Shown: piece by piece, positions 14,628 through 32,277 of the stretch
How positions within the stretch are numbered: the stretch's first letter is position 1
Layout: each line of letters starts with the position of its first letter
Assembly (NCBI GenBank): GCA_025353905.1
Contig: JANXNW010000045.1
Span: 1 to 33,456 of the forward strand
Origin: Hymenobacter sp.
GTDB lineage: Bacteria > Bacteroidota > Bacteroidia > Cytophagales > Hymenobacteraceae
Reading direction: 5' to 3'
DNA length: 33,456 bases
Notes under the pieces: model-generated
The model's input: only the letters and a program-made list of their open reading frames with translations
Told to the model about the DNA's origin: nothing
Databases searched by the model: none
Translations under genes and position numbers: made by a program

Positions 14628-14792
14628 AGGTGAGTAGGTGAGAAGGTGAGAAGGTCAGTCATTGCGAGCGCAGCGAAGCAATCGCACCTGTTAGGCGCGT
14701 TGTTCAGCTCGGCGCTCGGCTCGTCAAACGTGCTCAACAGGTGCGATTGCTTCGCTGCGCTCGCAATGACTGACCTTCTCACCTACTCACCT
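14628..14792. repeat. long layered inverted repeat with core gtcattgcgagcgcagcgaagcaatcgcacctgtt
   Basis: Left arm 14628-14692, right arm 14736-14792; arms match except one extra octamer (ggtgagaa) in the left arm. Lies between convergent RR and HK genes. Confidence 0.93.
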
Positions 14793-17317: not shown

Positions 17318-17989
17318 CTACTTGGGCCGTGGGGCGGCGCGGCGGGGCGCGGCGGTGGTCGTGGTCGAGGCCAGGGTGCGGGCGGGGTTGTCTTCCAGAA
17401 ACTTACCCCAGCTTTTGGTGCCGGCCTTGGCGTTGTTACCCTGCTGGTAGTGGTGGCAGAGGGCCACGGCGAGCGCGTCGGTGGCATCCAGAAACTTGCT
17501 GGCCTCGGCGATGGGCGGCAGGCTCAGCGTCTGGCGCAGGATGCGGGCTACCTGCTCCTTATCGGCTGCGCCCGAGCCGGTTACGGCCTGCTTGACTTTG
17601 GTCGGCGCGTATTCCACGAACGGAATGTCGCGGCTCAGGCAGGCGGCGATGGCCACGCCCTGGGCCCGGCCCAGCTTGAGCATACTCTGCACATTGACGC
17701 CGTAAAACGGAGCCTCGATGGCCAGCTCATCGGGCAGGTACTCGTCGATGAGCTCCAGCATCCGGCTGAAGATGCGCTTTAGCTTTACGGCATGATTGGC
17801 CGCTGTTCCGAGTGCTTTGAGGTTGATGACGTCGTAACAGCGCACGTCCACGTGCTGCCCGCGCACCTCGATGACGGCGTAGCCCATAATCTGGGTGCCG
17901 GGGTCGATGCCCATGATGACTTTTTCGGCCGGGGGCAGCCGCTGGGTGAGCTGGGTGGGGTGGGGAGCAAGAATACGGGAAACGGCCAT
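17318..17989 (-). CDS. ruvC: Holliday junction resolvase RuvC
   Basis: IMGIDPGTQIMGYAVIE…LAIEAPFYGVNVQSMLKLGRAQGVAIAA…YAPTKVKQAVTGSGAADKEQV…FLDATDALAVALCHHY. Confidence 0.95.
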   Translation of the reverse strand: MAVSRILAPHPTQLTQRLPPAEKVIMGIDPGTQIMGYAVIEVRGQHVDVRCYDVINLKALGTAANHAVKLKRIFSRMLELIDEYLPDELAIEAPFYGVNVQSMLKLGRAQGVAIAACLSRDIPFVEYAPTKVKQAVTGSGAADKEQVARILRQTLSLPPIAEASKFLDATDALAVALCHHYQQGNNAKAGTKSWGKFLEDNPARTLASTTTTAAPRRAAPRPK

Positions 17990-18021
17990 CTCGAACAAAG
18001 CTACGCCGCTCAGGCAGGGGA

Positions 18022-18173
18022 AGCCACTTGGGTTATTGGTTTTTGGTTGATGGTTGTTGGTTTTTGGGGTCGGCTGTTCGTGGTTGGGCGTTCGGTGCTG
18101 GAGGCCGCGAATCGAGCTGACCAACAACCAAAGACCAACAACCAACAACCAACAACCAAAAACCGAAGTGGCT
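18022..18173. repeat. layered inverted repeat of ttggttgttggtttttgg-type words
   Basis: Outer arms agccactt (18022-18029)/aagtggct (18166-18173); inner arms ggttattggtttttggttgatggttgttggtttttgg versus ccaacaaccaaagaccaacaaccaacaaccaacaaccaaaaacc. Confidence 0.88.
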
Positions 18174-18178
18174 GGATA

Positions 18179-19180
18179 GTGCTAGGTAAGCTGGCCGTGG
18201 CCGCCCTCACGCTGGGCCTGCTCTACCGCGCGGTATTCGCGGCCCCCGACACGGCGGCGGCCTGGCGACGGCTGCTGGCGGCCACCTTCAGCGGGGGGGC
18301 CGGCGCCACTTCCGGGCGCGGCCTGGTGCTGGCCGCGCTGGCGCTGGTGCCGCTCAATTGGGGCCTTGAAGCCTGGAAGTGGCACCGGCTGGCCCGTCAC
18401 CTCGGGCCGGGGCAGCGCTTCGGCGGCAGCCTGAAGGCGGTGTTGCTGGGCCTCACGCTGGGTTTTGCCACGCCCAACCGCGTCGGCGACTACGCCGCCC
18501 GGCTGCTGCTGCTGCCCGGCCGGCGGCGGGTGGCCGGCGTGGGGGCCGTGTTTCTGGGTCGCTACGCACAGCTCGTGGTTACGGTGCTGGCCGGCGCGGC
18601 GGGGCTGCTGTTTTTTGGGCTGAAATTTTACCCGGTGGGCTACCCGGCCGCTCAAGTGACCCTGGTGGCGGCGGCTGTGCTGCTGGCCGGAGCTGCGCTG
18701 CTGCCCCTTTACCAGGCGCGGCGGCTCGGGGCGCGGCTGGCCGCGCGGGGCTGGCGCGCGTGGCGTCTGGGCCGTTATCTGGGCCGCTGTTTGGCGGTGC
18801 TGCCTACGTACTCGGCTGGCGAGCTGCACGCGGTGCTGGCTTTGTCGGCAGCGCGCTACGCGGTGTTTTGCGCGCAGTTCGGCTTGCTGCTGGCGGCCTA
18901 CGGGGTGCGGGCCGCGCCGGGGCCGGCGCTGGCGGCCGTGGCGAGCACCTTCCTGCTCAAGTCGCTGGTGCCCTCACTCAGCGCGCTGACCGATGTGGGC
19001 GTCCGGGAGCTCTCGGCCACGCACCTATTTGGGCTGCTGGGGCAGCCGGCCCTGCCGGTACTCTCGGCCAGCCTGAGCCTGTGGGTGCTCAACATCGCGC
19101 TGCCCAGCGCCCTGGGCCTGCTGCTGCTGCCGGGGCTGCGCGTGTGGCGGGCGCGGCGCGGCTGGCGCGCGGTGCGATGA
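18179..19180 (+). CDS. flippase-like / lysylphosphatidylglycerol synthase TM-region (UPF0104) membrane protein
   Basis: Multi-TM protein …LNWGLEAWKWHRLARHLGPGQRFGGSLKAVLLGLTLGFATPNRVGDYAARLLLLPG…; GTG 18179 is a tentative start since the frame stays open through the upstream repeat. Confidence 0.8.
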   Translation: MLGKLAVAALTLGLLYRAVFAAPDTAAAWRRLLAATFSGGAGATSGRGLVLAALALVPLNWGLEAWKWHRLARHLGPGQRFGGSLKAVLLGLTLGFATPNRVGDYAARLLLLPGRRRVAGVGAVFLGRYAQLVVTVLAGAAGLLFFGLKFYPVGYPAAQVTLVAAAVLLAGAALLPLYQARRLGARLAARGWRAWRLGRYLGRCLAVLPTYSAGELHAVLALSAARYAVFCAQFGLLLAAYGVRAAPGPALAAVASTFLLKSLVPSLSALTDVGVRELSATHLFGLLGQPALPVLSASLSLWVLNIALPSALGLLLLPGLRVWRARRGWRAVR

Positions 19181-20625
19181 TTAGCGCGGCGCTGGTAGTT
19201 GGGATGGGGCTGCTGGGTGTGTCGGCGGTGTATGCGGGGGTGTGGGCGTGGCTGCGGGCTGGGGGGTTCTCGCCGCTCAACGACACCTCACCCCCTAGCC
19301 CCCTCTCCAAAAGAGAGGGGGGACTAGTTTCTAGCTCTAGTTCAAAAACAGATTTGAGCCTGATACTAGAAACTAGAACTAAGATTAGTCCCCCCTCTCT
19401 TTTGGAGAGGGGGCTAGGGGGTGAGGTGAGCGCGAGCGGCGAGAACCCCCTACTCTTCTCCGTCCTCGTTGCGGCCCGCGACGAGGCCGCTGCCCTGCCG
19501 CACCTGCTGCGCGCGCTGGCCGCCCAGACCCTGCCGCCGCCCTGTTTCGAGGTGCTCGTCGCCGACGACCACTCCACCGACGGCACCGCCGCCCTGGTGC
19601 TGGCCGCCGCCCGCACAGTGCCGTTTGCCCTCCGACTCATTCAGTTGCCGCCCGGCCAAACGGGTAAAAAAGCCGCCCTCACCGCCGCCGAAGCCCAGGC
19701 CCGCGCCCCCTGGGCCGCCTGCACCGACGCCGACTGCCGCCCCGCCCCCGGCTGGCTATTAACAATGAGTGAATGGGCTGGGCCAATGAGTGAATGGGCG
19801 AATGAGCGAATGAGTGAGGAAGAGGCGGCAATGAGTGAAGGAGTGAACGAGCGAATGAGTGATGAATTAAAAGCTCAGGAAGCTGAAAAAGCCCGCGAAG
19901 TCCCCACTCACTCAGTCACTCAGTCACTCAGTCACTCATTCACCCACTCACTCACTCACTTTCTGAGTGGGCCGGTGCGGCTTACGCCGGGCGGGGCTTG
20001 GTTTGATGGGCTGCTGGGACTGGAATTCGCCGGGCTCGGGGCAGTGGGGGCGGGGTGCATCGCGCGCCAGCAGCCCACGATGTGCAACGGGGCCAACCTG
20101 GCGTTTCGGCGCGCCTCGTTTCAGGAGGTGGGCGGCTACGGGGCGGCGGGCGGGGCCAGCATTGCCAGTGGCGACGACGAGTTTCTGCTCCACGAGATGC
20201 AGCGGCGCTACCCGGATGGGGTGCGCTTCGTGGCCGACGCGCGCGCCGTGGTCGATACGCCCGCTCCGGCCACGCTCGGGCGGCTGTTGGCCCAACGGGT
20301 GCGCTGGGCCAGCAAGTACCCGCACTATCGCTCGGCCGCGCCCCGCCGGCTGGCCCTGCTCGTGCTGAGCGCCAACCTGAGCCTGACCCTGGCCGCCGGG
20401 CTGGCGGCTGGCTGGCCGGCGCTACGGCCCTGGGCGGCGGCGGCGGCCGGGCTCAAGCTCGGCGCCGACGGGCTGCTGCTCTGGCCCATGCTGGGTCTGC
20501 TGGGCCGGCGGCGCTGGCTGGGCTGGCTATTGCCGCTGCAACTGCTGTACGCGCCCTATGCGCTGGCCGTGGCGCTGCGCGCCCGCGCCGGGCCCTACCA
20601 GTGGAAAAGCCGGACCGTGCGCTAG
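19177..20625 (+). CDS. family 2 glycosyltransferase with two in-frame repeat-derived insertions
   Basis: ATGA overlap with upstream gene; SVLVAARDEAAALPHLLRAL…VLVADDHSTDGTAALV…CTDADCRP…CNGANLAFRR…SGDDEFLLHEM…LLAQRVRWASKYPHYR; GT2 motifs interrupted by two low-complexity segments. Confidence 0.9.
   Translation: MISAALVVGMGLLGVSAVYAGVWAWLRAGGFSPLNDTSPPSPLSKREGGLVSSSSSKTDLSLILETRTKISPPSLLERGLGGEVSASGENPLLFSVLVAARDEAAALPHLLRALAAQTLPPPCFEVLVADDHSTDGTAALVLAAARTVPFALRLIQLPPGQTGKKAALTAAEAQARAPWAACTDADCRPAPGWLLTMSEWAGPMSEWANERMSEEEAAMSEGVNERMSDELKAQEAEKAREVPTHSVTQSLSHSFTHSLTHFLSGPVRLTPGGAWFDGLLGLEFAGLGAVGAGCIARQQPTMCNGANLAFRRASFQEVGGYGAAGGASIASGDDEFLLHEMQRRYPDGVRFVADARAVVDTPAPATLGRLLAQRVRWASKYPHYRSAAPRRLALLVLSANLSLTLAAGLAAGWPALRPWAAAAAGLKLGADGLLLWPMLGLLGRRRWLGWLLPLQLLYAPYALAVALRARAGPYQWKSRTVR
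19262..19450. repeat. layered inverted repeat inside the glycosyltransferase CDS
   Basis: Outer arms 19262-19278/19434-19450 (17 bp perfect); second layer 19284-19326/19386-19428 (cacctcaccccctagccccctctccaaaagagaggggggacta, 43 bp perfect); 59-nt interior with ctagtttctag words. Confidence 0.95.
19765..19961. repeat. second inverted repeat array (aatgagtg/cactcatt words) inside the glycosyltransferase CDS
   Basis: Left part 19765-19863 of gaatgagcgaatgagtga words; right part 19904-19961 of cactcagtcactcattcacc words; translated in frame. Confidence 0.9.
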
Positions 20626-20629
20626 AGCG

Positions 20630-20742
20630 GATTTCGATTTGATGTATGTAGCGCGCAGCCTTAGCTGGGCGGGTAAAAATCTCTTATCTAACGCTCTACG
20701 CGCCCAGCTAAGGCTGCGCGATACATACATCAAATCGAAATC
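20630..20742. repeat. inverted repeat, 42-nt arms (41/42), 29-nt loop
   Basis: gatttcgatttgatgtatgtagcgcgcagccttagctgggcg (20630-20671) versus cgcccagctaaggctgcgcgatacatacatcaaatcgaaatc (20701-20742). Confidence 0.95.
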
Positions 20743-32104: not shown

Positions 32105-32277
32105 GGAAGTGGTGGGAGGTGAGGTGGGGAGGCAAAACGTCCGTCATGGCGAGCGCAGCGAAGCAATCGCACCTGTTGAGCGCGTCGGGCGAGCTTAGCA
32201 ACGAGCTGAGCAGGTGCGATTGCTTCACTGCGCTCGCCATGACCGGCGTTTTGCCTCCTCACCTTCTCACTACTTCC
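32105..32277. repeat. layered inverted repeat sharing its core with the 14628-14792 element
   Basis: Core gtcatggcgagcgcagcgaagcaatcgcacctgtt … gcaggtgcgattgcttcactgcgctcgccatgac, with outer arms ggaagtggtgggaggtgagg… / …cctcctcaccttctcactacttcc. Confidence 0.92.

Follow-up and report, generated by a model that had tools for sequence, protein, structure and literature searches.

Palindromic repeats kept in frame in a glycosyltransferase and other proteins of Hymenobacter

Two inserts in a glycosyltransferase gene of Hymenobacter sp. are very probably (probability about 0.86) dispersed palindromic repeats in coding sequence, read as extra linker peptide in flexible linkers with a single open frame, in the manner of the Rickettsia palindromic elements (RPE). 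The gene lies in a stretch of 33,456 nucleotides, referred to as the window. A preliminary description had proposed mobile or amplifying palindromes whose translation is tolerated and gives rise to new stretches of protein. This reading was supported and is broader than proposed: the family of insert 1 (family A) is multicopy and found in many proteins, and the glycosyltransferase linker has been occupied repeatedly by unrelated families. Protein-coding palindromes as a kind are already known from Rickettsia and a few REP-rich genomes; the new aspects are the Hymenobacter families, their occurrence in enzymes that are essential, and the repeated occupation of a given linker by unrelated families, which extends over tens of lineages. 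In this genus of many sequenced species, the linkers of the essential enzymes IspG and MetH and of a glycosyltransferase have been filled repeatedly by unrelated palindromes.

Two palindromic inserts in one reading frame

The features of the gene are as follows (all on the + strand).

19177..20625: GT2 glycosyltransferase ORF, 482 aa, open frame (Pfam Glycos_transf_2, 5.9e-16)
19180..19260: N-terminal membrane helix, residues 2-28 (AlphaFold helix, pLDDT 90-96)
19262..19450: insert 1, family A palindrome, translated AGGFSPLNDTSPPSPLSKREGG...SPPSLLERGLGGEVSASGENPL, recognised by inverted arms, genomic copies, fold and pLDDT
19262..19326: 5' arm of insert 1, 65 nt, 92% complementary to 19386-19450
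19386..19450: 3' arm of insert 1, 65 nt, 92% complementary to 19262-19326
19459..19767: first part of the GT-A catalytic domain, with TDADC at residues 183-187 (Pfam PF00535, residues 95-197)
19764..19961: insert 2, octamer palindrome, translated MSEWAGPMSEWANERM...THSVTQSLSHSFTHSLTHF, recognised by octamer arms, genomic family and site length
~19764..19862: 5' octamer arm of insert 2, AATGAGTG-like, with the in-frame TGA of each octamer replaced
19907..19960: 3' octamer arm of insert 2, TCACTCAG-like, an inverted copy of the 5' array
19969..20625: second part of the GT-A domain (GDDEFL, QRVRW) and the C-terminal membrane helices (Pfam PF13632)

The translation has no stop inside 19177-20625 and reads through both palindromic arrays, and the start codon overlaps the stop of an upstream membrane-protein ORF (17792-19180). 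The assignment to GT2 follows from the profile match and the catalytic motifs DAD, DD and QxxRW; the columns D333-D334-E335 and Q373-R374-R376-W377 are invariant among the orthologs. The preliminary description of an open frame through two unrelated inverted-repeat arrays was correct, and both peptides read as quoted there. Its statement that all GT2 motifs are intact beside the inserts holds for the catalytic motifs; however, the conserved WLxxYAxLL segment after TDADC is replaced by insert 2. A check for surface loops had also been suggested. In the AlphaFold model, in which the GT core is confident, insert 1 appears as a disordered tether (pLDDT 43-54 over residues 31-90), while insert 2 is modelled as a helix of moderate confidence that leads into a disordered tail.

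The RNA fold of insert 1 has an energy of -161 kcal/mol (z = -18.6 vs shuffles), and its frame 0 holds no stop, with 6 and 7 stops in the other two frames. Family A has about 40 copies in the own genome, most of them matched on both strands as expected for palindromes, and these dozens of matches show that insert 1 is not a chance sequence. In the near-complete genome of a close relative (G079), the 18-nt core of the family was found 55 times forward and 55 times in reverse, corresponding to about 55 copies, and a reversed control gave 0. Most of the copies in this genome are intergenic, as judged from a sample of 15 paired copies with 3 inside long ORFs. The peptide form is present in 43 of 120 Hymenobacter genomes. 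In a 297-genome Bacteroidota sample, which contains only three Hymenobacter, the only match came from the window's own genome, and family A was absent from the ~294 genomes outside the genus.

A family A arm has one open frame only, and either orientation of the palindrome gives a nearly identical peptide. All 18 copies within ORFs have lengths divisible by three, which serves as an illustration only because in-ORF copies were defined by an open frame, so that the count is partly circular. The arm tips agree within one copy in 41 of 48 cases (14.7 expected by shuffling), which indicates that the two arms are copied or repaired together. Insert 1 is common to the window and its relatives L081, L082 and L086, a group with 99% support; its presence in these three sister species shows that it was inherited and is not private.

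Insert 2 has a weaker fold (z = -4.6 vs shuffles). Its family takes the form (TGAGTGAN)n-spacer-(NTCACTCA)n, and similar octamer arrays at about 20 other inspected places of the own genome, nearly all intergenic, show that insert 2 is not due to chance either. All frames of the canonical octamer contain TGA. None of the in-frame ones remains in the window copy, whose arm 1 holds 0 stops in frame 0 and 7 in each of the other frames. A stop-free frame was found in only three of the 14 octamer arms checked, all three short. Among 92 orthologs the insert is private to the own genome, a single MAG (82% complete, 435 contigs). The site spans 76 aa in the window; almost all orthologs have 21-27, and three species in which tandem units have expanded have 33-44. 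In-frame tandem CTCACCA-like and AAGCACC-like expansions are seen at this site in L090, L084 and L126. The junctions of insert 2 are not clean, and with WLxxYAxLL overwritten, the glycosyltransferase of the window may be impaired despite its open ORF.

Other repeats were also observed in the window. A palindrome with 46-nt arms (96% complementary) lies in the intergenic region directly 3' of the GT stop codon (20630-20742), and is perhaps a terminator or a member of another repeat family. Two copies of another palindrome, with the reading SVIASAAKQSHLL...CDCFAALAMTD on both strands, lie at 14646-14782 and ~32110-32240. Palindromic AACCAAAAACC-type repeats at 18034-18163, noted as upstream of the membrane-protein gene, gave spurious microRNA matches in Rfam.

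Repeated filling of linkers across the genus

Orthologs of the glycosyltransferase were collected from twenty named relatives and from 90 of 120 genus genomes that hold the gene; selection of the loci relied on the C-terminal half. In Hymenobacter, the linker that joins the membrane helix to FSVLIAARNE is a hotspot of repeats. Of about 90 linkers, 27 carry palindromes that exceed a codon-shuffle null by a z of at least 4, and 31 of 91 carry a recognised palindrome. The latter belong to the mutually unrelated families A (CACCCCCTAGCCCCCTCTCC), B and C, and to A2, a GC-rich variant resembling A. Family B consists of heptamers (AATGAAGAATTAAG) read as NEELRMKNEEL...NSSFLIPHSSL, and family C of heptamers of another kind (AGTTAAAAGTGAAAAG). 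When the family labels are mapped on a catalytic-domain tree, a minimum of 22 state changes is required, a parsimony count that covers gains and losses or replacements alike; the filled lineages fall into 24 pure clades (14 A, 2 A2, 6 B and 2 C). In three further orthologs (L130, L135 and L088) the linker carries long tandem repeats without inverted arms (NNSSEVPNSNSEIRNNS, TPNTQHPTPNTQHP, AKTETALASTQSAL), which suggests that it also grows by other routes.

In Flammeovirgaceae and Cyclobacteriaceae, the linker of the orthologs is plain, with 20 residues and neither insert, so that the preliminary description escapes the objection it had named itself, i.e. the same segments in distant genera. 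Its expectation that related genomes lack both segments with clean junctions holds in part: the distant relatives lack both, and insert 2 is private; however, insert 1 is shared with three sister species, and the junction of insert 2 is not clean.

No linker element breaks the GT frame. The chance that a random insertion keeps the frame, in both phase and length, is about one in nine by our estimate; with 24 of 24 lineages in frame, this means selection to read through. Only two orthologs are broken (L124 and L125, both in draft genomes), by a frameshift near the same place between GKKAA and TDADC.

Family A is also found in frame in many unrelated proteins, always as SPPSPLSKREGG...LERGLGGEV. 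The hosts in the own genome are a GT4-deacetylase, an S8 protease, a RecB-like helicase, a methylmalonyl-CoA mutase (between the barrel and the B12 domain) and a topoisomerase (before the C-terminal zinc-type repeats). In other species they include MetH, IspG, Mfd (two species), CoA-transferases and an AddB-like nuclease. MetH and methylmalonyl-CoA mutase with family A still score above the NCBIfam equivalog cut-off. In Mfd (L213 and L219) the element sits at the same place in two species; G079 and G058 have further ORFs of about 1200 aa with family A, which may represent Mfd too.

The linkers of MetH (loci L206 and L277-L285) and IspG (loci L208 and L291-L304) were compared in the same way. 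The MetH linker holds family A in G098 and G004 and family C in G083; it is empty in six other Hymenobacter and in the outgroups. The IspG linker holds family A in G075 and G012, family B in G093, another heptamer in G110 and further low-complexity filling in G004 and G114; it is empty in G022, G023, G112 and G083. The empty sites are clean in the orthologs of both enzymes.

Proposed origin and alternative explanations

Hymenobacter genomes are rich in several unrelated palindrome families of the same type. When a copy lands in a gene, it would be translated as an added linker peptide, and the gene copy would survive only if the palindrome arrives in the right frame, adds a multiple of three nucleotides and lies in a flexible linker or loop. 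Permissive sites of this kind lie between the membrane helix and the catalytic domain of GT2, between the modules of MetH, and between the domains of IspG. Since several unrelated families are present, these linkers are filled repeatedly and independently by different families, and the new segment would be a neutral linker extension filtered by selection. The translation of the inserts, the neutrality of the peptide and the copying mechanism are deduced from the sequence. The palindromes had been described as mobile or amplifying; they are amplified, multicopy and dispersed, and their dispersal suggests that they may be mobile. Translational bypass or splicing of the elements is unlikely, because frame and length would then need no keeping.

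It is rather unlikely that certain inter-domain linkers are specific landing sites to which a shared mechanism steers unrelated families. Such a mechanism might be, for example, copying into single-stranded or hairpin-prone sites or the replacement of one palindrome by another. If this were true, the linkers of essential enzymes would be turned over genus-wide by selfish DNA, and not by random arrival and filtering.

The state of the gene was assessed by comparison with the sister locus L081. The dN/dS values are 0.116/0.558 (~0.21) before insert 2 and 0.179/0.695 (~0.26) after it, indicating purifying selection on both sides. The ratio against the sister species as a whole is about 0.25 and does not differ from that between the sisters themselves, and the upstream gene has diverged to a similar extent (72-74% identity); these rule out a decay specific to the glycosyltransferase. 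A pseudogene or an assembly artefact, which the preliminary description had raised as an objection, might be suspected, as the MAG is fragmented and insert 2 is private and overwrites conserved residues. The objection is answered by this dN/dS, by a frame that has stayed open despite the many stops in the other two, and by the occurrence of insert 1 in isolates with few contigs (G079 and G058), and it is hardly credible.

The many occupations of the GT linker might instead go back to one ancestral palindrome that was lost or overwritten many times. The inherited copy of the window and its three sisters fits such a history, as do diverged remnants in L094, L123 and L084; however, the lineages in which A, B and C, families unrelated to one another, fill the site are interleaved, and many arms are still near-perfect palindromes, suggesting a recent origin or active arm repair. 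An old insertion with many losses is therefore unlikely. It is less probable still that the linkers are functional, i.e. that the hairpins are kept for ribosome pausing between the membrane helix and the catalytic domain, or for a useful peptide. A very strong hairpin does lie directly after the membrane helix, and one site is occupied recurrently; whereas 60 of the 91 GT orthologs have no recognised element, unrelated sequences occupy the same site, and the soluble enzymes MetH and IspG carry elements too.

For insert 2, local slippage of octamers in a CAC-rich loop, and not the arrival of a dispersed element, is possible but doubtful. Tandem CTCACCA-like units have expanded at the same site in L084, L090 and L126, and the native 3' flank in L080 and L082 already reads CCCATTCACTTC. 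However, the window has both inverted arms and a spacer, like the other octamer elements of the genome, and slippage alone does not make the AATGAGTG arm.

It is a long-standing question how such elements arrive, how fast they turn over and whether they contribute to protein evolution; in this genus it becomes directly countable, as empty and filled sites stand side by side in cultivable bacteria. For genome annotation, it is to be noted that peptides such as SPPSPLSKREGG or NEELRMKNEEL are repeat-derived.

Comparison with known repeat systems

No description of such elements in Hymenobacter was found in the literature searched. A search of Rfam gave no match above the gathering score, and only sub-threshold microRNA-like matches to the hairpins. 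The enterobacterial RU repeats (PMC2759123) are also MITE-like repeats lying in frame inside annotated genes; whereas their sequences and hosts are different, and genus-wide reuse of one linker is not among the features given for them in the abstract of that paper. The coding palindromes of Nematomorpha mitochondria (PMC6649704) are likewise long inverted repeats translated in conserved genes, with the arms kept matched. There, both arms encode conserved residues; whereas the arms in Hymenobacter are extra linker.

The REPIN/RAYT elements (PMC3116915) resemble the Hymenobacter elements in that two REPs are inverted and dispersed. A RAYT or IS200-like transposase was rejected as the mover of family A. 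The core lies within 2 of the 30 Y1 loci of the genus, which is about the chance expectation, and the two copies of the own genome (L108 and L109; 32 loci in total) also show no enrichment. These two Y1 genes are flanked by palindromes of their own (GGCCGCTGTTTAGCGCG... and ACACCAAGCTCCAGCTTGGTG), and are candidate REP-RAYT systems.

The GTAG- or CGTC-tagged REPs and REP dimers (PMC3733652) are inverted hairpin pairs, some of them inside ORFs and many in genes for replication and repair; for the intragenic copies, flexible linkers were proposed in that paper. RPE-4 and RPE-6 end in CGTC as well (PMC3733652). Family A differs in having no such end: in 98 arms a terminal GTAG or CGTC tag had no fixed position (the top count at a single offset was 7 of 98, for CGTC); whereas a fixed CTAG is present in the same arms, at +8 in 76 of them and at +37 in 71. 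The size of the whole element, about 100-150 bp, is a further difference. Two Xanthomonas recB genes have different REPs at about the same site (PMC3733652); whereas site reuse in Hymenobacter extends to tens of lineages.

The closest likeness is to the RPE (Ogata 2000 and 2002; Claverie and Ogata 2003, as cited in PMC6649704). As summarized in that source, they are multicopy palindromes that lie in frame in genes and also between them, and are tolerated by the host protein. Family A shares these properties, being a palindrome in many genomic copies, inserted in frame in unrelated conserved proteins and absent from orthologs. The likeness is one of kind, and a relation in sequence is not claimed; in Hymenobacter, unrelated families share one linker across many species.
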